Assembly: GCA_029717555.1 (NCBI GenBank)
Contig: JAMDHS010000070.1
Span: 49,197-113,196, forward strand
From: Peribolospora baueri
Taxonomy: Eukaryota; Basidiomycota; Peribolosporomycetes; Peribolosporales; Peribolosporaceae
DNA: 64,000 nucleotides
Reading direction: 5' to 3'
The notes beneath the pieces are model-generated. The model did no database searches and was not told the origin of the DNA. It worked only from the letters and a program-made list of their open reading frames with translations. Below, piece by piece: positions 567-53,738 of the stretch (position 1 is its first letter; every line of letters starts with the position of its first letter). The position numbers were made by a program, and so were the translations under genes.

Positions 567-3421
567 TCATCGATGCTTGACGCGGCGAGTAACGATGAGA
601 GGTAATCCTCCAGTAGGCTTCATCGTGATAGCCGAATCCATCCTGGGCTTCTGATCCTTTGAGACCGGTGCAAACTCAAAGTGGGCGACGAGGACGCTGA
701 CAGAAAGTACGATGATAGTAAAGTCAGATGACAATGGAGATGGACGATGCTACGAAATCGCATGGAGGCTCACCAAACGACTGCCTTCATCTCTCTGCAA
801 TCGGCACCCCCGATAGCGATACGAGCCAGACCAGAAAATTAGAAACCATTGGGAAAAAAACAAAACGGGGAGGAAGCAAATTGGAGACACTTGCAGATAA
901 GACATCGTCCGCCCAATGCACTGATGAGCCCTGCAAGAGCGAAGAACAGGGAGCAGCGTAAGTCCATCAGCAACCTTGACCTCTACCGTTCAACGGCCTT
1001 GAGTACTACGGTCGAACGACTCTTACCCGGCAATGAAAGTGAGCATGGAGAAAGTTTTATCGTACTTCTCGGGCAAGTCAAACCAGCGTTCAGGGCGGAC
1101 TGCAGAGCCACGAGGGCAAGAGAGAATGAGCTCGGTGTGATGCTCAAGCAGAAGCCAGCACCTACGCCAGAAGGTCGAGTCAACTTACAGGTGAGTGCAT
1201 CGTTCCCCCACACTCGTTTGTCGGTGTTTACGGCACGGTTGGCAATGGCAAGCAACTAGAATGAGAGTATAACTCTTCAGCATCAGCCAACCCTCATCAA
1301 AACGAACGTCTGTCAACAAGAGGTAAATACGCACAGTACCCTTGGGGATGAAAACGCCGTCGATGTAGTCTGATTTTGCGGCTTGCCTCATGGTTCGCTG
1401 TCACGGACGGTTACTCAAATCAAGTAAGTCATCTGTGACGGGATGAGGTTCACTCAGACCACGATACACACCGGCACCGGAGGCATAAACCTCATGGTCT
1501 CGTTTACGACCGCGTCAAGATAGGCCAGTTGCTTGACCTCACTGTACGCCGGGATCGGGTCAGCGTTTAGAAGGGTGGAACATTCCTCGGCAAGTTTCGC
1601 CTGCACATCGGGGTGGGTAGCTAGCATCCAGAGCATCCAAGAGACACCTGCGAAGAAGAAAGGCACGATGAAAAAAAGGGTTCGGCGGCACCTTCACTTC
1701 AGATAGCTGTAACGAGCTATACTCACCGCTTGCCGTAGTTTCATGGCCAGCGCCAAGAAACGTGAGCTACAAAAAAAGGTGGCGCCTTCTCTTAATATCG
1801 CTACAGCCGACGTCACTTCAAAGCATTGAAGAGAACCTGTGCATTTAACTCACAACCTGCGAGACCATGTCTTTCTCGGTCGTGATCGTGCCGCCCTCGT
1901 CCTGCCGAGTCTTGTCGATAATGCCAATGATTGACTTGGGGGCCTCTGGACCCGCCTGATCTTCATCGCTTAGTTGACGGTTAAGGATTTCGCGGGATAC
2001 GAGCTTGATGCGATGCATCGCGTTGAGGAATTTAAAAAGCACGCCAAGCTGGCCAGGAAGTCCCGTGCTGGAAGACCACGCTGAGGCATCGCTTAGCCGG
2101 TCCAACACCCAGGGAGCTCCAGGAATTTGAAGCAGAGCTAACAAGCTGCCAAAATTGCGTCCTTGAAAGGGAATTCGTCGCATTTCATTGAGTGACGCAC
2201 CAAATTGTGTAGGTCGATCCAAATGCACTTACCGTTTTGTAGGCTTATAAGCTGATGATAGGCGGTACCGAGTTCGTTATTGGTGTTGGCCAGCGCATCT
2301 GTTCGGTAGCCTAGAAAAAGAGAATATTATCAAAGCAATGTTGCCTTTAGCTCGTACGCCGACCTGCATAATACAAGCACACGCTTACCGAATGCGGTTT
2401 GACAGATGATGTCTAGCAAAGCACGCGAGCACCAATCAGCGCAGTCAATGACCGTTTCTTTGGAGCCCGTGTTCTGGTCAATCTGTTGGTTGAACATGTC
2501 GACGAGCGAGTAAATAGAGCCATAATAAGTCGGGAACTCTGCAGGGAATGGCAAGGGCGTCGTTAGCAGATTCACAAAACGTGTGAACTCCACGAAAGAG
2601 AGGACTACTTACGAGCAATGATGTTCGTCAAGGAGAAAGCAGGATTCATCGTTTTGCGCATGTTCTTGTGCATGTTTCCTTCTACAGTCAAAAGACCGTA
2701 TCCAGCGGCCTAAAGAAAGCCGAAGCGAGCGCCAACGTCAATACACAAAGCGAAACGAACGACGAGCGACCCTGTGTTGAAATTGGTTCCTACCAGGCCG
2801 AGTGCGCTCGCAACGAATGAGGGCTGCAGCAGTGAGAAAAACAAGGACGGCGAACGGAGGAAAGGGAATAAAGGAATCGGAGCCAGTACAGAGGTGGTGT
2901 TTGACCAGGACCATCTTCGCACACGGCGGAAGGCTACAGGTCTCACTTTCGGATAAGAATAGGGCTCCTCAACAAGGATCTTGCGAAGAGCAGACGGCCT
3001 TAAGAACGCGACCAATTCGTAGCCAAAGGGCCAGAGGATCCTTACGTGACCGGCATCACCGTACTGGATCGAATGGACAGAAGCAGTAGCACCACTCGTA
3101 CAGCATCAGCGGTCCGTCAGCGAGCCTGGTCACGCGACTGAGAATGGATGGCTATTGCCAGGGGGGCACGAAGACGCGTTCCATAGAACGCACCTTTTCA
3201 GTCCATTCTATCTCAAGTTCAGCCCCTTGGCTTCGAGCAATGTTCCCGAACTGCCCCAGCACGATGTTCCCCACTGGGGGGCCAGGAAGGTGGCGCAAAG
3301 GAGACAGATGTCGAGGCTGTATGTAAAGATATATGAAAAACGCTATGAAACAGCCAGTTGCAGTGAAAGCCCCGGTGATTAGGGATGAGACGAGGTCAGC
3401 TTGATGTATGTGGGACAGCAT
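567..3421 (-). CDS. Cytochrome P450 monooxygenase, membrane-anchored, multi-exon
   Basis: This is a haem-thiolate monooxygenase, probably in the ER membrane and fed electrons by cytochrome P450 reductase; the substrate is unknown. It opens with a hydrophobic anchor (about residues 10-35) followed by the proline-rich hinge LRHLPGPP. Spliced minus-strand exons then give the C-helix region (GLLTVEGNMHKNMRKTMNPAF), the I-helix oxygen-binding motif GAGHETTA with the donor just after it (near 1720), the K-helix ExxR (ETMRF), the PERW motif (RPERW) and the haem loop FIAGAHQCIGR, whose Cys codon is 918-920. The protein ends RVKHR at a TGA at 567-569. All hallmark residues are present, so the enzyme looks functional. 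At least eight introns were inferred from frame continuity. It is divergent from the S2P gene, with about 530 bp between starts. It is not evidently CYP51 or CYP61, and I cannot assign a family number. Confidence 0.93.
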
Positions 3422-3955
3422 GGCGTTGGTGGGGTGAGCTGCGCAAGCGAGTCGACGAAACGCTATTCTTTTCCATCCCCTCCAGGGCCGGCACTTAAAT
3501 AAGGCGCGGAGGCAGAAATGACACGCAGGACCATCCACCGTCCTCGACGACGATGCGGAGAAGAGAGAGGGGCATGTGAAAGAAAGAACAGCGCGCATTT
3601 CGCTGTTGGGACGCGGCCGTCGATCACCGGCACGTGATCAGGCATGGTCGAGAGCCGCAGCAAATGACGCTCGCAACAACGCTCGCAAGAATCAAGGTAC
3701 GAGAGGACGATGGAGACGGCGCGAGGCTCAGCTTCATCTTTACATCTCTTCCGTCCCTCCTGCCTCCTCCCTCTCCCTCTCCCTCTTTCCGCGTCCATTC
3801 ATCCTCCCCGTTCGGCTTGGCGCAGCCAGGATCCGCCGGCCCGGGCTGGCTGGCTGGTTGGGACGAGACGAGACGTCTGAATCTCTCCATCGAGTCGCCC
3901 TCGTCCCGTAGGCGGCCGCCTCCTCTTTCGGCACTCAAACCCGCCAGCATCGACG
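3422..3955. promoter_or_regulatory. Divergent promoter region between P450 and S2P genes
   Basis: About 530 bp separates two start codons that point away from each other, so both promoters must lie here. It includes a CT-rich stretch around 3755-3790. Several overlapping open frames on both strands look like compositional shadows. I could not recognise a sterol-response element or other defined operator by eye. Confidence 0.5.
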
Positions 3956-6900
3956 ATGCACCCCCTTATTCACCTCCTCCTCACCACTGCTGCCCTCTAC
4001 GCCTTTCTCCACGCCCTCCGCCTTTTTACCCCGCTAGGCCGCCGCCTCTTCCGCCCCTCCACCGCCGTCGGTAGCCGTGTCCACCTCACCCTCGGGTGGG
4101 CATACGTCAAGGTTGAGACGACGGCTTGGAATGAGGTGCCGCGCAGGTTCGTGAGGTGGTTGGATGGCGCAGGCGCTGATGGCGGCAGCGACGGCGGTGT
4201 TGGAACGGGTGTCAGGACGCACGGGGCGGACAGACGATGGGCTCGAGATCGAGCTCGTCAACTCCCCAACACCTCGCCTTCGTCTTCTTCCGACGACCTC
4301 CGATCGCACGCCGACCTCCAGAAGCAGCATCAGCACCAGTCCCACCCTCCCAGTGCCACTCCTACCTCCCCTCCAATTCTCACACACCCTCCCTCCAAAT
4401 CCCACCACCTATCCCCTCGTCACCTCCCGCCATCCCGCCCCCGCCGCCTCCTCCGCTTCTTCTACGACCTGGCAGCGCTGTTCGCTCTCCTTGGTGTGCT
4501 TGCCTCCTTCCTCGTCTTACTCGTTGCTGCATGGCAGTTGCTCGGTGGGCTCGTGCGCCTCGCTGGCGGAACGGCGGCGGGGGGAGGGGGAGTGGGAGTA
4601 GGGGTGGCCGAGGCGGTTCTGGAGCAGACGGCAGCGAGAGGATTGCAGAAGAGAGCGTTCGCGGACGCTCCTTCTCTCACTGAGGCGGAGAGAGTGAGGA
4701 GGGGAGGTCACACTGCCATCCTAACGCCCCTGGTGCGTCGATGTGCTCGTCCAGGTGCTCTCTGGCCGGCTCGCCCCGTCTCACATGCTCGTCTTCGTCG
4801 TCTTTTCCCTCCCATCAGATCCCAGGCGTCACCGTGCCAGCGAGCCACGCTTTCCCGCTCTTGCTTGCTCTTTTCGTATCTCAGGTCGTACACGAAGCCG
4901 GACATGCCATCGCTGCCGCCGCGTGAGTCGAGCCGAGTCGAATTGAGTCATCAGGCCCCACTCTCTTCCGGCTAATAGAGCAGCTTCACTCACGCTCCCT
5001 TTTTTTGGCCCTCGTTCTCTCCACGCCACCAGTGAGGATCTACCCATCCTCTCCGCTGGCGTTGTCATCCTTTTCCTCGTCCCAGGCGCCTTTGTCTCCC
5101 TCCCTTCCTCTCCTTACCAATCTCCCTCCTCCTCGTCGCCAGGACGAGACCACTCCGCTCGCACGCGCCGACACGACACCGCCCGACCATCGAAACTTGC
5201 CACCTTGCCCACTCTCCCTTCCCTTCCCCCTCTCCCCCGCCTTCGCATCCTCGGTGCCGGCAGCTGGCACAACTTTGTGGTTTTCGTCCTCTGCCTCCTC
5301 CTCGGTTCGCTTGGTCTCGGATCGGCACTCGCGAGGTGGTCCGGTGGATGGAAGGAGGTGGCGGATGGCGTCGTCATCGAGAGCGTCGCTGAGGTAAGGG
5401 GGAGGATCTACCCTAATTTAGGTTGGGAGAGGATGGGAATTGATTGGATCTGTTCTCTATCTCTTTTTATTTCCTTGTTTCTATTTGCCTACTCATTCTC
5501 GCACGCAGTCCTCTCCACTCTTGCCCTATCTTTCTCCCGCGTCCACGATCGTTAGGATCAATGACTTTTCCCTCGCCGCTGACACGCTCGACGCCCGGCA
5601 GGAACGATGGGACAGTTTTTTGTTGGGGAGCGGGGGTGGCGGTGGGGTCGATGGAGACGGAAGACGGGAGATGGGGTGGTGTGTCAACAGAAAGTGGTTT
5701 GAAGGTGATGCATCGCCGTCGTCGCCTTTTAGCTCCCCGGTTGATCGTCGGATTGAGCAGTGGTCTCTAAATAATTCTTCTTTATGTCCCATCCAGCCCT
5801 TCCGACAGATTGCTGCAAACCAGGCTCCTCAGGACCGTCCTTCTCCGAGTCTTCTCCCTCGTCCTCCTTGGAAGGACGACGAGGTGCCGCTTTCAACGAT
5901 AACGGCGACGATGGCGAGGGTGAGGGTTCTGGCGCGACGTTGTGCTTCCTCCCTTCCGAGCCTTCCTTCTCGTCCTCACGGCATGAAGGGCACTGTCTCG
6001 ACCCCACCCCTCTCCTTACCGCCAACCCCAACATCACCGCGCCATTCCCCCCATCCCTCTCCAGTACGTACCCCGACGCCAAGTCTCTCGGCTCCCGGAG
6101 GTGCGTGGACGTTTGTGGAAGGGAGGGCGAGCGCGAAGGAGAGGAGCGGGAGCAAGTCTGTGTAAAGCCGGACTCGCGCGCCGGCCTATTGAGGATCGCT
6201 TTCGTCCCGCCGCCTTGGGAGGCAAGGCCGATAGTGCGTGACGGGGAGGCTTCCTCGGAGCACTCTAGAGGCGAGGTGGTAGTATTGTTTCAAGGGCCCA
6301 GATGGGCCGTCTGGGAGCAAGGTGAGCAGATGCGGAATTGACGGCGATTTTCTTTTCATCGGAGAAGCGATCAAGATCGTCGTTTTCCGACTCGCTCATG
6401 TCTCTTGCGCACCGTGCTCCTTTTCGCGCTCGCAGTTCGTACGACGCCCCTTCGACCCACGTTCGGCCCTTTTCTCCGCCTCTCTCTCGGAACAAACCTG
6501 TTCAGCGATCCGTCGCTGAGCCTCTCCCTCACGCCCGTGACTCTCCCGCGTCGCCTCGCGCTCTTCTTTTACGCCTACCTCCCCTCCCTCTCCCTCGCAC
6601 TCGCCGTGCTCAACCTCCTCCCCGCTTGGAGGCTCGACGGCGCCGAGGTCCTTCGAGCGGCGTTGGAGGAATACTTTGCGCGTCAAGAGGCGGAGCGAGG
6701 ATCCGCGGGTGCGAGGAAAGCGAATGCGAGAGGAAAGATGAAAACGAAACCGAAATGGACGGGCACGGGAGAGAGGCTAAGTAGGAGGGGCCATTCGTCA
6801 CGTGCTTCGTCTTCGGCTGAGGGAGGGACAGCGGAAGATGATGCGCTCGCGTTCTTTGCCGAGGGAGATCGACGGTCGTCCTCTTTCGACGTCGAGATGG

Positions 6901-7625: not shown

Positions 7626-11420
<3,795 letters not shown>

Positions 11421-31565: not shown

Positions 31566-32783
31566 TCAACCCTCCAAGCGCACAGCGTTGGCCCCCGTCG
31601 CCATCCACTTGGGCATCTTGCTGCCCTTCTTCGCCGTCTCCTTCGTCCCACCAGAGCCCTTTTTCCATCCCTTCACCTCCAACGCCTCGTTCATCGCTTT
31701 CTCTCGCTCGGCTGCCTTCGACTCGGCTGCCGGCGCGATGTATTTGTCGTGGAGTTTCCTCTGCCCGTAAAGAATGGATGAAGGGTAGCGGACGGTCAGT
31801 GGAGCAAAGTCGAGAGCAAAACGGCCGAACGCAACCCACCCTCTCGAGCTCGAGTCGTTCGTTCGCTTTCTTGATCTTCTCTCTCCTGGCCTCGCTCTTT
31901 CCTCCCCCGCCCGCGCTCAGCTCGACATTGATCTGGCGACCGCTGAGGAAAGTGTGATGGAAGCGGAGCGCCTTTTGAAGGCTGTTCGGGGAGGAGAATT
32001 CGAGAAAGGCGCAGCCTTTGGAAGTGGGTTTGGCCGGTTTGCCCTTGGTTTTCTTGTCCTTGGCGTCGACGGCGGACGTCTTTTTGGTGAGGAGCCTGAT
32101 CTTCGGGGCCTCTCCTGCGAGGTGGGACGAGGGGCCGACCGATCGACGGGAGACGTCGAAGAAGGGGTGAGATCAGTCAAGTGAAGGGGGGGGGTCGAGG
32201 GGGCAGCTCACCGCAGTTTTCAAAATGCTTGAGGATCTTCTCAGTGGTGACATCAAAGGGCATGTTGCCTGTGCGAGGAGAAGGTGACGAGATGAGACGT
32301 CTCTTCCGGTCGCTCGAGAGGAGATCTGGCGCATTCACCTACGAAGACGATATACCGTGTCGTCTGCCCGCCCTCCTTCTCGCCGCCCTTCCGCCGCTTC
32401 TTATTCCTCCCCGCCGCCGCCGCCGCCTCTGCGTCTTCGTCCCCTTTGGTCGAGCTCTCCTCTGTTCCTCCTCCTTCCCCGGCGTCGTCCCGCTTTGAAG
32501 ACCGTTTCCGCTTCTTCTCATTTCCGTCTGCTCGTCCAGCGTTGAGACCGGCGCCCTTGGCCTTGGCCTTGGCCTCCGTCCCCGTCCCCGCCGCCGTCCC
32601 TGGTCCATCATCAACGTCGTCGTCCATCTCCGGCAAATCCCTAATCAAGTCCTCCTCCGCCCTCCTCTTCCCATTCCCATTCCCATAATCCCCATCGCGT
32701 TTTCGCTCGCCGGATCGATGAGCGAGCGCCTTTTGCTGCTTCTTCGTCAACTTTTTGCCAGCGGCGGTGGTGGTGGCGGCGGT

Positions 32784-32825
<42 letters not shown>

Positions 32826-32837
32826 TGTTGGAGGCAT
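31566..32837 (-). CDS. NOP6: Nop6-like nucleolar RNA-binding protein (RRM)
   Basis: This resembles yeast Nop6, an RRM protein of early 40S ribosome biogenesis. The N-terminus is an Ala/Thr run from a GCN triplet repeat, then KKLTKKQQKALAHR and long Lys/Glu-rich stretches. The RRM starts RYIVFVGNMPFDVTTEKILKHF (RNP2-like), continues GEAPKIRLLTKK and KGCAFLEFSSPNSLQKALR (RNP1 region), and ends HHTFLSGRQINVELSAGGGG. The AGGGGKSEARREKIKKAN segment is characteristic of this family. A basic C-terminus (EVKGWKKGSGG, KMPKWMATGANAVRLEG) finishes at 31566. At least two introns split the RRM. The linker inside the RRM (SAVDAKDKKTKGKPAKPTS) is a lineage-type expansion between strands. Confidence 0.87.
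32770..32825. repeat. GCG/GCC trinucleotide repeat in the Nop6-like coding sequence
   Basis: A nearly pure triplet repeat on the plus strand, read as GCC codons on the minus strand. It encodes the Ala/Thr-rich N-terminus of the Nop6-like protein and is prone to length variation. Confidence 0.85.
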
Positions 32838-33298
32838 GATGGCGGTATGACGGGGTCAAAACGAAGCAAAGAAAGGGAATACTAAAAGAAGACGGTGAGC
32901 CCGTTGGTCGTGCGCTTCGCTTCCTCGTCGGCTTTAACGAACGAACGGCAGGCGCCTGAAGCAAGCAGACAAGACAAGACGAGACGCTTGTTCAGCTCCT
33001 CCCTTCTGCTGCTCCTGTCGCTCGTCCAAAACGCTGCGGCCGTCGCCTCGCCTCGCCTCGCCTATCGTCGTCAGTCTCTCTAGGCCGCAGTTGGCCTGTA
33101 TTAAAGACTTTAAACGGATTAATCAATCAATAAATCTATCACCTACCGCAGTAACTCTACCGCAGTATGCCTTTTTTTCTCATTGCACTCTTGCCTCTCT
33201 TTATATTATACTCCCTTTAGGTCGTTCACGACTGGACTGTTAAGCAGATTAATCAATCAATCAATCAATGCAATCAATCAATCAACGGCGAGGCGATG
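32838..33298. other. AT-richer gap with AATC tetranucleotide repeats
   Basis: The left part of the gap holds the 5' flank of the Nop6-like gene. The direct repeat GATTAATCAATCAA occurs at 33117 and again at 33247, the latter extended into an (AATC)n run up to the transposon. There is no coding potential. Confidence 0.6.
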
Positions 33299-33300
33299 TA

Positions 33301-33893
33301 CAGTCAAACTTGTCTATAAGCATACGAGTTGTATAGCGCGAGGGCTCCACACAGAGGGGGTCCATGCATATTTGCCGCAGTCCTTGCCACAGTCGATAGC
33401 GTCCATCAAGACATGAATTCCAAGCTTTACTATAGAGTATGTACACGCCATAACACAACCATGTTCAAGAAGAAGCGTGGGCAGAAAAGAATTGTCGAAG
33501 ATCGGTTTGTTTACGCTGCTTGTTGACATGTTCTTTGAAAGAGATGGTGAAACGCGGACAAGCACCCACTTGTAGTAATGTTAGAACTGACGGTGGATGG
33601 ACGAAAGTGGATGTTACTGGTGCGTTATTGTTTCAGCCGCGTAACCACGGTGCTCGTCGCCGCCAATCTCCAACACCCACGAGGATGCACGTGATCCTCA
33701 ACCCTAACTATGCATGCCGAGGGGCATACCTGGTTAAGGACGGGCACCGGTGTCAGTGCTATGCAATATGCGGGTATGTTTAGTATGCATATAGACCAGC
33801 GCTTTGGCTGGGGAGCAAACGGGAAAGGGAGATCGCTATGCGCTATGCGAAGGCATTCCTCTGAACCCGTATGCTAACAAATACGTTTGACTG
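33301..33893. mobile_element. Non-autonomous pogo-like (Tc1/mariner) element, 593 bp MITE
   Basis: The ends are inverted copies. The left end begins CAGTCAAAC and the right end finishes GTTTGACTG; extending inward, about 24 of the first 31 bases match, including the shared block AGCATACG. Both ends are flanked by TA (33299-33300 and 33894-33895), the target duplication made by Tc1/mariner transposases. The CAGT(C/A)AAAC end resembles pogo/Emigrant-type elements. The interior has no long ORF and is AT-richer than its surroundings, so the element must rely on a transposase from elsewhere. Orientation cannot be set. Confidence 0.8.
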
Positions 33894-33895
33894 TA

Positions 33896-34269: not shown

Positions 34270-34510
34270 TCACTCCTCCATTTTGATCGTCGTAAACCCT
34301 TCCTCCAACTGGCCAGCCGCCACCGCCGCCGCGCTTTCTACTACGCCGACGCCCTCGCGGTCCTTGCCTCTCGCAGCCGACGATGTCATTGATCGGTCCT
34401 CCCGCCGACGCCGGTCGCGCTTCTGGCCTCGATCCGCCGCGTCCGCCGCCGGCTGGACGTCCACCATGAGTGCTCCGTTTGTCGTCCGTCGTCCGTCGTC
34501 CTCGTCGTCA

Positions 34511-34548
<38 letters not shown>

Positions 34549-37500
34549 CTCGTCCTCCTCCTCGTCCTCCTCCTCCTCCTCCAAGTCATCGTCTTCCTCT
34601 TCCAAGTCGACAAGCATCATCGTAGAGCTGCCGTCGCCCGCCGTGCCACCCGCTGCCGCTGCCACCGCCGCAGACGCAGCCTCTGAAGACGGAGAAAAGG
34701 CAAAGCCGTTGAGAAAGGCCTTTGTGACGGTCTCCGCGTCGGCCGCGACGCCGCCTGTCACTTCGGTTCCTCGCGATCCCGACCCGGACCCGGACCCGGA
34801 TCCCAGCGCCACGCCCACTCGATCGGATCCCTTTCCCTTTCCCTTACCAATCCCACTCCCACCACCGCCCGACTGGCTTCTCAACCTCCTAACCTCTTCG
34901 GCAAGCACACGATTCCTTCCGAGCTGGAGTTCGACAAACTGCTGGAGGTAGCGGATGTAGTCCACGCTCTTGCTCAGGATCACGCCCTTGTTGGGTTTTA
35001 TCGGCTGGACGGCCGAAGCCGGGGCCGACGTCGAATCCGGGGCCGATGCCGGGACAGAGGTGGAGGGGAGGGAGAGAGATGGGTCGTCCTCGGTCTTGAG
35101 GGCAGCGTTGCCGGCGGCGGCGCCGGAGGGACTGGAAGACGACGGTGCCTCTGCCTCTGCCTCTGCCTCTGCCTCTGCCTCTGCCTCTTTCCTCTTTCCT
35201 CCAGCTCTCTCCGCGCCGCTACCGCCGTCACCACCGCCGTCACCACCGTCAGAACCAATAACACCAACGTCAGCAAGGAGCGCCTCGGGCAAGAGCGTAG
35301 CAAGCTCAGCGATCTTCTCGTTAATGTTGTCCCTCCGACGGCGCTCGACGGCGTTGTGAGACTCGCGCCTGCGTCGACGTTTTTCGGACAGGAGGGCGGC
35401 GCTGAAGAGGAAGAGGAAAAGGAGAGATATAAACAAAAGGCACGAGCGACGACGACGACCACAGACACGGTTCTTACGACCGGACCCGGGCAACTCACCG
35501 CTTCTCGCTCTCCTCCTCTCCCGTGCCAACCTTGCCGGCCGGTGTCGCGCCGGCCACGGCCTTTCCCGCGATCCCTTGCCCTTGCCCTTGCCTTTGCCCT
35601 TGCCCGCCGCTCCTGGAAGCAGCCTTGGAAGCGGCCTTATTATGCGGGAGAGTGCGACGGCCACCACCGCCATCGACCTCGATCTCGACCGTCCCGCGCT
35701 CCGACAAGTCTTTCCTCTTCTCCCTGGCGCTCTCTCCAAGTTCTCCCGACACCGGCACGGAAGCGGACATGGAGGCGGAGGCGAAGGGAGGCCGCGAGTC
35801 GGACACAGCGCTCCTCTTTCCTTTCGACTTGGACTTGCGCGACGACGACGACGCCCTGCGCGCCTCGTCCGGCTCGGCTTTGTCGACGACTGTCATCGCA
35901 TGGTGGTGCGGATGGATGGCGCCCATCTCCATTCCCATTCCCATTCCCATCCCCGCTCCAAATTCGCCGCCGCCTGACACGGACACGGGAACGGCGGGCG
36001 GGGCGCTTGCGACGGTGAAAGACTGCTTTGAGAATCCGAGGGCGAGGTCGTCTGAGAAGAAGGAGGAGGAAGAGGAGGTCGACGCGGCACCGTGGTCGTG
36101 GCCGTGGTGGCCGTGGGAAGAGGACGGGATGGCGATAGCCGACGGCCCTTGTTGCTCTTGTTGTTGCTGCGCGTGTTGAGAAGGGACAAAGTAAGAGCCG
36201 AAAGGGACGGGGCCTCCATGGGACGACGTCGCGGGCGGCGGAGAGGAGGACATGGTGGGAGGCTGAGGGGGAGCGGCGGCGAAGAGGTGGTCGAACGTCA
36301 TGCCGTGATGGTCGTCATTCGGATTCGGCTGGGCGCCCTGGTGGTAGGAGTACGGGTGCCACTGAAACGGCGCGTTTTGATCATGCAGGCTCTGCACGTG
36401 GTGGGCCCACCCGGCGTGCCGTCCCTGCACGGGCATGGAGAAGGCCATGGCGGCGCCGTCGAGAGAGGGTCCGACCGTCGTCGGCGGTGCGGCGGCGCCA
36501 GCGCCGGAAAGCGAGAGCGGGAGGCCGTTATGGAAAGGGTGCTGGCCAGGGTGGAAGGGGAGCGGGGCGGCGCCAAAGCTGGAAGCGTGAAGGTCTGCGA
36601 AAGCGCGCGAGCCAAAGGTGGGGACCTGTACGGCGCCGGCAGCGCCTCCTCCGCCGACGCTGGCGACGGAGGAGGCCGCGGAGGAGGAGGAAGGGGACGA
36701 CGGGGAAGGGGAAGGGGCGAGGATGGACCCTCTTCTTCCCTGTCCGTACCCGTATCCGAAGCCCTGTAGGCGGGGACTTGCGGCCCTCTGGCCGCCGAAG
36801 TTGGTTCCAGCGCCGCCGCCGCCGCCGCCGCCGCCGCCCCTTTCCTTGCGGACAGACGCCACGGAGCCGCGTCTGGCGGCGGGGGCGGCGGAAGGCGGGG
36901 GCCCGCCTCTGGACGTGCTCCTCTCCGTCCTGATCGGGCCGGGGGAGGAGACGTGGGTGCGGCTCCTGCTCCTCCGTGTGGAGCCAACGCCGGCGGAGAC
37001 GGGGGGGGAGTCGAAGCTGGACGGGGCGGCTTGGCCGGCGGAGCCAAAGGGGGAGGAGGAGAGGAAGGGCGAGTCGATGGGGTCGACGCCGCTGCCGGCG
37101 GAAGAGGAGCTGGCGTGGTGATAGTGTTGCTGGACGTGGGGAGGAGGGGCGTGTGGGCTTTGGGACAAGCCGGCAATCGCACCGGGGAAAGGCTGTCCGT
37201 CGTGATCCATGAGCGAAGCGACGAGGTCGGCGTCAAAGTCCATGGGCTGGACGGGGTCATTGGCGGGTGCGGGGTGGTCGGGGTGGGAATGACCATACTC
37301 GTCGAGAAAGCCGGAGTGGAAGAGGAGGTCGGGTTCGAGGCGGGTGGTGGAGGAGGAAGCGGAAAAGTCGTTAGTATGGTTAAAGTCGTAGGGTTGGGCG
37401 GACTGGGTCTGGAGGGACTGTGGGGTGACGGTGGCGGTGGAGGAGGTGGACTGCCTGGGGGGTGCGTCGAAGCCCTGCTGTTTGACTTTTGGTTCGTTCT

Positions 37501-38873: not shown

Positions 38874-39743
38874 TCACCCCGTCGAAACCTCAAACAGCCC
38901 TTCCCCCTCGCCCTCCAGCTCCCATCGACTCCTTCTCCTCAGCTTTTCCGACCAGAACCTGCGGGTCGAGAGAGGGTCAGCCACAACACAAGACAAGACA
39001 TTCATACCACGCCAACCGGCCGACTCACCGCATCACCTTCTCCCACTCCTCCCTCCCCTTCACCATCTCCTCCCCCGCTCCCACCGTCCCACGAGCCTCG
39101 CTAACATCCTTGAACCCCTTTTTCCACCACTCTACCCATCTCGCGTTCCCCCGGTAAAAGACTAGCGCCGGCGTCTCTACCGGCGGAGAAAATGTGGGCA
39201 GCGAGAGCAGAGGACCGCATATGGATACCACCGACCCGAGCTGCCGTCTGTCCTTGTTCGCATCCTTGGTGGCCGTCCGTCGCTCCCTCGTCCACCGAAT
39301 CGCAAGCTCCCCCGCGAGTGTCCCGCCCTGCCCAAAGCCAAATAAGTGGATCGACGTCGAAGGCCAACCGCATTCGTCGATCAACCGGTCCAAAAGGCCT
39401 CCGAGTGTTCGGAGGGCCGACGACGGGTCTGGGTGTGAAATCACTGGCATCGATCCATCGACGGGGGCACGATCAGCTAGAAAAAAAAACAGAACGAACA
39501 AACAAACAAAAACTCACTCTCGCCTAATACATCAAAGCTATCCCACCACTGCCATCCTTCCTCCTCTAGGTACGGGATCCGACGAAGCCCGCGTACAGAG
39601 AGTATGGCTGTTTGGGGGAGGTTTAGTGACTGGCCCATGTGTGTGAAGGGCGTCTGTGTATCGCCTGCGAGGCGCGAGGAAAGAAGAGAATAAGCGGCAA
39701 AGGAATGGAGAGAAAGCAAAGAGACAGCAAAGAAAAGGAAAAG

Positions 39744-39791
<48 letters not shown>

Positions 39792-39800
39792 AAAAAAAAG

Positions 39801-39837
<37 letters not shown>

Positions 39838-40026
39838 CGCAACATCCAACCACCCTCTCCGTCTCACTCACTCACCCAATCCATGAAACAAAACCAGCAG
39901 ATTACTGTCCACCCCATCCGGACTCGCCCGGTAGTCGAACACGACATCCCCTCGCGTCGTCGGTGCCCGCTTGCGAGTCGATTCTTTCTTTGCTGGCTTG
40001 GCTGTCCAACTTTCTTGCACTTGCAT
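38874..40026 (-). CDS. Alpha/beta-hydrolase-fold protein (carboxylesterase-like), apparently lacking the catalytic triad
   Basis: The fold is that of the phospholipase/carboxylesterase group: LLVLFHGLG then DTQTPF, LNLPQTAILSVRG, GWQWWDSFD, IDECGWPSTSIHLFGFGQGG and TPALVFYRGN. However, the nucleophile elbow reads G-F-G-Q-G (39325-39339), with Gly where the Ser should be. The strand that should carry the acid reads VFYRGNARWVEWW without a suitable Asp. The C-terminal segment (FWSEKLRRRSRWELEGEGEG to the TGA at 38874) has no His. It may therefore be a non-catalytic member or use other residues. The second exon joins HGLG to DTQTP across an intron with a very long poly-T tract. Start at 40026 chosen as the Met nearest the conserved part; upstream in-frame Mets exist. 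Shares a 172-bp promoter with TMA22. Confidence 0.8.
39744..39832. repeat. Poly(A) tract of about 89 bp inside an intron
   Basis: An almost pure A run on the plus strand, interrupted by single Gs at 39790 and 39800 (poly-T on the coding strand). It lies in the first intron of the hydrolase-fold gene, between the donor near 39880 and the acceptor near 39662. Confidence 0.95.
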
Positions 40027-40198
40027 TTTCCTTGCTTCCTTGTCTTGCTGATGACGTTCGACGGAGCGAGCGACAAGACGCGCTGACGCCGTTCGATCAT
40101 CGCTCGAAAAGCTGCGGCCTCGGCTCACGACGACGACGGTCAACACTCCTTCCTTCCGTCCAACCCGTTCACTTCCACCACCGACCGACACCATCAAC

Positions 40199-52533: not shown

Positions 52534-53738
52534 GGAAGTGGAGGAATGAGATGAGAAACCGCGTGGTGTCATGCTCTGTTTTGTGCTCTGCTTCGTATGT
52601 ACGTCTGGCCTCGAATCGCTATCCGAACGGTTGTACTTTACTTTTTACTCATTCTAGTTAGCCGCCGCCGGTCCGCCTTGCCTCGGTCGGGGCGGGGCGA
52701 TCGTCGGGGGAACAGGGCGAGATGGAGGAGGAATGTGCCACGTCGGCAGTCCGCATGTCACGTTCTGCAGGTGTGTATGTGGGTGGAGGAGAACGAGCGC
52801 TCTCCCTCCCTCCCGTGGACCTAGCTAGGACTGGGCCCGCTTTGCTTTGGTTTGCTTGTTTTCCACTCGACCGGTCGGGTCGGACCTGGTGATCAATCAG
52901 ATCAACAATGGGGCGGGGCGGCGGGTCCACGCACCCACGGTGGGTCCATTTGTTTATTTATTTATTCATGTTCATCGCCGTCGCTCGCCTGCCTCCTCGT
53001 CTCGTCTCGTCCGTCTCCTGCCTGCCTGCCTTCCTCGCCTGCCCGTGCTCGCCCAGCTGAGCACGGCGACGTGGCTGACCAGCTCGGCGCGCGTCGGCGC
53101 GTCGTGGGGGACAGACGGAGAGGAGGGGATCGTCGACGAGCGAGCCGTCCCACATACAGCTCTGTTCGGAGGGCGGCGGCATGTTTACTGATGTGTGTCC
53201 GTCGATAGATAGATAATCAGCTTTGCGGAAGGAGATGGTGGGCCGAGCAGAAGGAAAGGCGGCGTCGATATTCGCCGGACGTCGGCCTGCGGCGACTGCG
53301 GCGACTGCGGCGGGGCCCGTTGAGCGCGGGTGCAGTCGCCGCTAATCGACGCGTCGAAAGGGCATTTCAAATCTTTCAAATCCTAAACGACGGCCGCAGC
53401 CGACGCGCGGGGCGGAGGGAGAGCGGGGAGACGGCGTCGAAGGGGGCGGGCTGGCGGGAGTCGTGTACACCGATAGCATACGCGCGTAGTAGTAAGTATA
53501 CGCTACACGTACACTAGTAGTCTGCGCGACACTCATGGTCGGAACTCGGTCGACTCGCTCGACGCGCATCGTCGCAGCCATCTCCATCTTTCCTCCCTCC
53601 TCCATCTCCATCTCCATCTCCCTCCTCCTCCTTCTCCTTCTCGGCTTGTATTTGCTTCCTCCCCTCTCTCCTTCCCACCTACGCTCCCTCAGCATCCCAG
53701 CCGTTGATTGGCGCCTAAGATCGACCACACCCACGGCC
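52534..53738. other. Intergenic region between PDS5 and a conserved unknown gene
   Basis: About 1.2 kb between two plus-strand genes. It contains TTTATTTATTTATTC near 52952-52967 and repeated GGCGACTGC units near 53288-53312. The last 200 bp are CT-rich and likely the 5' UTR of the next gene. No ORF with recognisable features. Confidence 0.5.

Follow-up and report, generated by a model that had tools for sequence, protein, structure and literature searches.

A 593-bp MITE in the basidiomycete Peribolospora baueri, very probably formed by internal deletion of a pogo-superfamily transposon

Introduction

MITEs of Arabidopsis were reportedly derived from a pogo-like transposon, as described by Feschotte and Mouches in 2000, and this pairing is known by the names Emigrant, for the MITE, and Lemi1, for its pogo-like partner. 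The terminal inverted repeats (TIRs) of pogo elements begin with CAGT. In those sections of a superfamily survey that are drawn upon here, Tigger and Lemi elements are both bounded by TA, with DD29-36D and DD29-42D, respectively, and the fungal Lemi elements are all from Ascomycota, in Saccharomycotina and Pezizomycotina (PMC7386202). The same sections also cover Fot, a set of fungal pogo-superfamily elements reported in Basidiomycota from two classes; nearly all Fot elements are DD35D and most are bounded by TAA, and FotC and FotD, a minority, have TA (PMC7386202). A literature search found no described pogo MITE in Basidiomycota, although absence from print is not thereby shown.

The element reported here lies in a 64,000-nucleotide stretch of Peribolospora baueri DNA, hereafter the window, and is very probably a MITE that originated by internal deletion from a pogo-superfamily transposon, was multiplied in trans, and then decayed. 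By description it can be likened to the pogo-derived MITEs of Arabidopsis, although its host is a fungus and its assembly yielded no intact partner.

Structure of the window element

The whole insertion (33299..33895, plus strand) comprises a 593-bp element with a TA on each side, and its terminal sequences read TA-CAGTCAAAC...GTTTGACTG-TA. The two ends match each other at 9 of 9, 15 of 20, and 24 of 31 bases. The first-pass annotation, made from the sequence alone, had described an insert of exactly this length with flanking TAs, perfect 9-bp ends, and the same 31-base match, all of which is borne out. It had also called the element non-autonomous, and no transposase-sized ORF is present: ATG-started frames inside reach at most 79 codons, and stop-free frames at most 109.

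The terminal ends of the MITE family read CAGTCAAC. In the window copy, the left TIR (33301..33331, plus strand) is of the end B type, begins with CAGTCAAACTTGTCTATAAGCATA, and shows no mismatch to the family end pattern, while matching the other end at 24 of 31 bases. The right TIR (33863..33893, minus strand), of the end A type and containing TGTTAGCATA, is decayed, with three mismatches to the family pattern, the maximum allowed; it is among just 4 of 72 matched ends needing that many. A subterminal motif, GCTATGCAATATGCGGG, lies at 33758..33774 (plus strand) and occurs at consensus positions 46 and 539; its counterpart near the opposite end of the consensus is partly removed in the window copy by a 20-bp deletion. 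The site of this deletion, 33351..33352, is private to the window copy among the 23 copies compared. Two further deletions relative to the consensus are shared, one of 61 bp at 33631..33632 with L002, L003, and L004, and one of 21 bp at 33805..33806 with L002, L005, and L006. Since these sets differ, at least one deletion must have recurred or the copies must have exchanged sequence; recurrence may apply to the 21-bp deletion, as short direct repeats flank its site in the consensus.

Surroundings in the window

To the left of the element is an ORF at 32253-32837 (minus strand) that has no Pfam match and has the element on its 5' side, and to the right is a bHLH-domain (PF00010) ORF at 34270-35739 (minus strand), with its 3' side towards the element. 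The element has a GC content of 48.9%. A scan in 600-bp windows and 50-bp steps placed the lowest GC at 39451-40050 (44.3%), followed by the window starting at 33101 (44.7%), which is largely the element's left flank; GC is also low at 2101 (46.8%). The first-pass view that the element occupies the only AT-richer gap was therefore wrong. Elsewhere in the window, an ORF at 9052-10728 (minus strand) fuses amino-acid kinase, N-acetylglutamate synthase, and semialdehyde dehydrogenase domains of the arginine pathway, which is a fungal arrangement. On another contig, C153, a frame combines a homeobox with Mating_N, a basidiomycete family. Together these two frames point to a host that is probably a basidiomycete.

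A dispersed family

The element was used as a DNA query against its own assembly (22.1 Mb in 178 contigs), and at least 70 matching pieces were recovered, with 40 of 63 candidates scored, such that copy counts are lower bounds. A genome-wide search for the family ends, using a 26-base degenerate pattern with up to three mismatches, returned 72 (38 + 34), versus 0 + 0 for the reversed control pattern. An absence of other copies, which the first-pass annotation had named as contrary to its own reading, is thus not what the genome holds.

Of 48 loci scanned for ends, 32 possess two usable ends. TA is present on both sides of 25 of these, the window copy included, and the other seven have one altered side, in support of the earlier claim that the element duplicates TA. 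Most (29 of 32) measure 206-859 bp, and the remaining three 1.9-3.1 kb. In 30 of the 32, one type B end (usually CTATAAG) and one type A end (usually CTGTTAG) stand in opposite orientation; the exceptions are the copy on contig C108, which carries type A twice, and L075, with a second end (CTATTAG) that is intermediate between the types. An all-against-all comparison of the 32 sets of flanks (E 1e-8) found a single pair with a common stretch, of 42 bp. The 593-bp element therefore belongs to a dispersed family that is short, non-coding, and multi-copy, with terminal inverted repeats and a TA target-site duplication, as is expected of a MITE.

These same data bear on whether the element could instead be a conserved regulatory or RNA element, which is extremely improbable. 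Its position between reading frames, 5' of the ORF at 32253-32837 and 3' of the bHLH ORF, would suit such a role, but the copies are TA-bounded and dispersed among non-matching flanks, and the single-strand DNA fold is no better than that of shuffled sequences. Specifically, the fold had a z of -0.92, with 20 of 100 shuffles as good, and a hairpin or RNA function was rejected.

Relics of the parent element

A DDE_1 profile search of the genome matched at a single place, on C108, in two pieces lying in different frames, and DDE_3 had no match anywhere in the genome. HTH_Tnp_Tc5 was matched on C71, in a family relic with one stop within the match, and on C101, in a 563-codon frame. Within the family, recognizable pogo-type domains are thus limited to the Tc5-type DNA-binding domain of C71 and the DDE_1 nuclease of C108, never in one copy and never intact, which makes the connection to a functional pogo enzyme indirect. 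The first-pass annotation had suggested looking for a full-length element with a transposase; searches of the assembly with DDE_1, DDE_3, and HTH_Tnp_Tc5 found no intact transposase, only these decayed pieces. Comparison of one DDE_1 piece with the PDB gave no matches.

When the inner part of C108 was used as a DNA query, seven relatives were identified (on C108, C99, C175, C90, C44, C71, and C87), all of them broken and all adjoining one or both MITE-type ends. The ends of these relics align piecewise with the window element, at about 75-96% identity. Pieced together from several relics, none of which is complete by itself, the parental order runs from end A through the gene start, the DNA-binding part, DDE_1, and a downstream part to end B. 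Parental end A corresponds to the reverse of element bases 597 to 244, and end B to the reverse of bases 243 to 1.

The label "pogo-like" given in the first-pass annotation is upheld by the HTH_Tnp_Tc5 (C71) or DDE_1 (C108) relics beside MITE-type ends, together with the TA target and CAGT-type TIR starts that mark the pogo superfamily. A TA duplication, a TIR of about 30 bp, and relic pieces of Tc5-type and DDE_1 domains are shared with the superfamily's Tigger, Lemi, and pogoR families, as described in the survey sections used here (PMC7386202). In the open frame of C108, 30 residues separate the second and third D, as counted by eye in a decayed copy whose match is eight positions shorter than the DDE_1 profile stretch. 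This apparent spacing, set beside family descriptions only and taken from a decayed copy, falls within the ranges given there for Tigger and Lemi (PMC7386202). TA and the apparent 30-residue spacing of the decayed C108 copy are unlike the TAA and DD35D of most Fot elements, although a minority of Fot also has TA in the same account (PMC7386202).

The CENP-B-like ORF on C101 was rejected as the parent, given that a scan of two frames there found HTH_Tnp_Tc5 without DDE_1, and that the genome's DDE_1 is on C108 only. This locus, L043 (C101:535407-538595), combines HTH_Tnp_Tc5 in the 563-codon frame with a CENP-B_N match just under the cut-off in a neighbouring frame, lacks DDE_1, and is possibly a host CENP-B-like gene encoding a domesticated pogo-type DNA-binding protein.

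The deletion junction

In the relics, GAAAG of end B is followed by TGCGACTGAG, slightly altered on C175, and end A carries sequence such as ACGCGGACGACGG ahead of AGATGG. In the window element, GAAAG is joined directly to AGATGG at 33541..33542, with one shared G and about 1.5 kb or more of the parent gone. To the left of this junction, 33299..33541 (minus strand) derives from the parent's end B, the downstream end of the transposase unit, and matches the C175, C44, C87, C99, C90, and C71 relics as far as element base 242-243. To the right, 33542..33895 (minus strand) derives from end A, the upstream end, with piecewise matches to the C108, C71, C99, C175, C44, and C87 relics.

The junction was found at 28 places genome-wide, 21 of them letter-perfect over 25 bases, versus none for the control, and the family thus has a common deletion breakpoint from a longer element. 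Such an exact junction at so many places indicates that one deleted copy was multiplied. Among the loci compared, the undeleted end-B form (at most one mismatch) was present on C44, C87, C90, C71, and C99, and the undeleted end-A form on C175 and in the short copy L012 (both with no mismatch) and on C108 (two mismatches). None of the compared loci with the junction has an undeleted form; undeleted forms are confined to the relics and L012. It follows from the junction and this distribution that most short copies stem from one deleted copy. L012 itself (C88:194500-198000, 1319-1932), a two-ended copy of 614 bp in which the end-A sequence is undeleted and the common junction absent, is, judged by its sequence, a separately formed deletion derivative. 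Two very short two-ended members also lack the common junction, namely L079 (C88, 370-575; 206 bp) and L077 (C103, 404-776; 373 bp).

It could be argued that the MITE was never deleted from the pogo relics and merely acquired similar ends, so that the same enzyme moved it in trans. The piecewise divergence of the relic ends from the MITE and the presence of end A at both ends of C108, the fullest transposase relic, are compatible with this alternative. Against it, joining one parental end to the other at base 243/244 accounts for the whole MITE and not just its tips, and in the relics parental sequence extends past this point on both sides; the base-exact junction largely refutes acquired ends, which are accordingly very unlikely, and deletion from a pogo parent is the preferred explanation.

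Age and decay

Divergence was estimated from 23 of the 28 junction-bearing copies, with L019, L024, L029, L031, and L032 omitted because they have no usable second end; another six short copies with two ends, which lack the junction (L012, L020, L038, L075, L077, and L079), also stand outside this set. The 23 copies have a median distance to their consensus of 4.8% (2.0 to 6.7) and a median pairwise distance of 8.1%, with a minimum of 3.5%. Singleton changes number 270 versus 111 shared, a pattern not far from a star, which suggests that a burst of copying gave way to independent decay, with a degree of subfamily structure.

The window copy lies 5.6% from the consensus, ranks 18th of 23 from the least diverged, and carries 17 private changes in addition to its private 20-bp deletion. 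Together with its mismatched right end and the lack of any pair closer than the minimum above, these values do not support the earlier suggestion of a fairly recent insertion. Intact ends are no sign of recency here, since TA has been kept at both ends of 25 of the 32 copies in a family that is old by divergence.

Across 29 short two-ended copies, from which the long copies L009, L042, and L056 were left out because of their inserts, substitutions comprised 571 transitions versus 455 transversions, and the most diverged members, L038 and L079, are about 21% from the consensus. Cytosine-directed decay, whether RIP-like or at CpG, was unsupported as the main cause of divergence, CpG sites being more diverged than other positions in 15 of these copies, less so in 13, and equal in one.

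The retention of TA on both sides of so many copies could also mean that the family is still mobile, through a transposase missing from the assembly or a cross-acting one. A 178-contig assembly may miss repeats, and a search of this one with a conserved LSU rRNA pattern returned no match. Continued mobility is nonetheless unlikely, given that even the closest pair of the 23 copies differs by 3.5% and that, of the families searched, DDE_1 occurs at one broken place and DDE_3 at none.

Under the preferred history of deletion, spread, and decay, a stretch of about 1.5 kb or more, with nearly the whole transposase gene, was deleted from one parental pogo copy, as the relic map and junction show, leaving 243 bp from one parental end and 354 bp from the other. 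A full-length relative would then have supplied a transposase that recognized these ends in trans, excised the deleted copy, and inserted it at TA targets, duplicating the TA, as the ends, the TA, and knowledge of the superfamily imply. The deleted form multiplied to at least 28 sites by count. Finally, the transposase copies probably decayed and the MITEs drifted as relics, consistent with the lack of close pairs and of any intact transposase.

Longer relatives with inversions and inserts

Several longer relatives have unusual structures. On C108 (L042, C108:46500-52500, 1670-4420), a 2.75-kb TA-bounded fold-back carries end A twice, along with all of the DDE_1 matches in the genome, which fall in two frames; its outer ends are mutual inverted copies (84%), and inner parts are repeated in inverted orientation around the middle. 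On C99 (L056, C99:132500-137500, 1205-4306), a 3.1-kb two-ended pogo relative has a 1,181-bp insert directly before its Tc5-type domain, containing an OrsD domain and a palindrome of about 410 bp. Parts of this insert are held in common with C175 (L009). OrsD had no further match in the genome outside C99, and no donor of the insert was found in the genome, where only two short matches on C102 exist besides the C175 copy.

On C71 (L055, C71:1-8000, 3227-3717), a partly palindromic 491-bp insert, common to C111 and C133, sits between element bases 196 and 193 within the pogo relic that bears HTH_Tnp_Tc5. At L071 (C111:115500-121500, about 1863-4494), a family end A fragment (about 1863-2007) is followed from about 2299 by gene-like frames, which have no Pfam match above the cut-off, are about 88% alike to C133 over 1.5 kb, and contain GTGLGKT, which we take to be a nucleotide-binding-like motif. 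Finally, C102 has a 230-bp palindrome (89%) at about 53135-53364 (L063 1542-1771), and near it a frame (L073 1903-2457, minus strand) whose Pfam HTH matches all fall under the cut-off and which resembles the HTH start of a Harbinger-type nuclease.

One reading is that the inserts and inversions of the longer relatives would have come from aberrant, template-switching gap repair after excision, and such repair could be the source of the MITE deletion as well. A broader and decidedly tentative picture is that a pogo lineage outside Fot may reside in a basidiomycete, where its longer copies may repeatedly have gained inverted duplications and foreign pieces by aberrant gap repair, among them the genome's sole OrsD match and a portion of a gene-like sequence that recurs on two other contigs. 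The genome would then preserve the steps from full element to fold-back and patched copies to multiplied MITE.

Conclusions

The window element is an ordinary MITE in kind, but its origin is unusually clear and traceable to one exact deletion. The case is a clean one: within a single genome, the MITE's birth can be followed back to one deletion junction, and both its spread and its decay can be counted. Should the parent indeed lie outside Fot and the host be a basidiomycete, pogo elements would have a wider range than is reported for Basidiomycota in those sections of the superfamily survey drawn upon here (PMC7386202).
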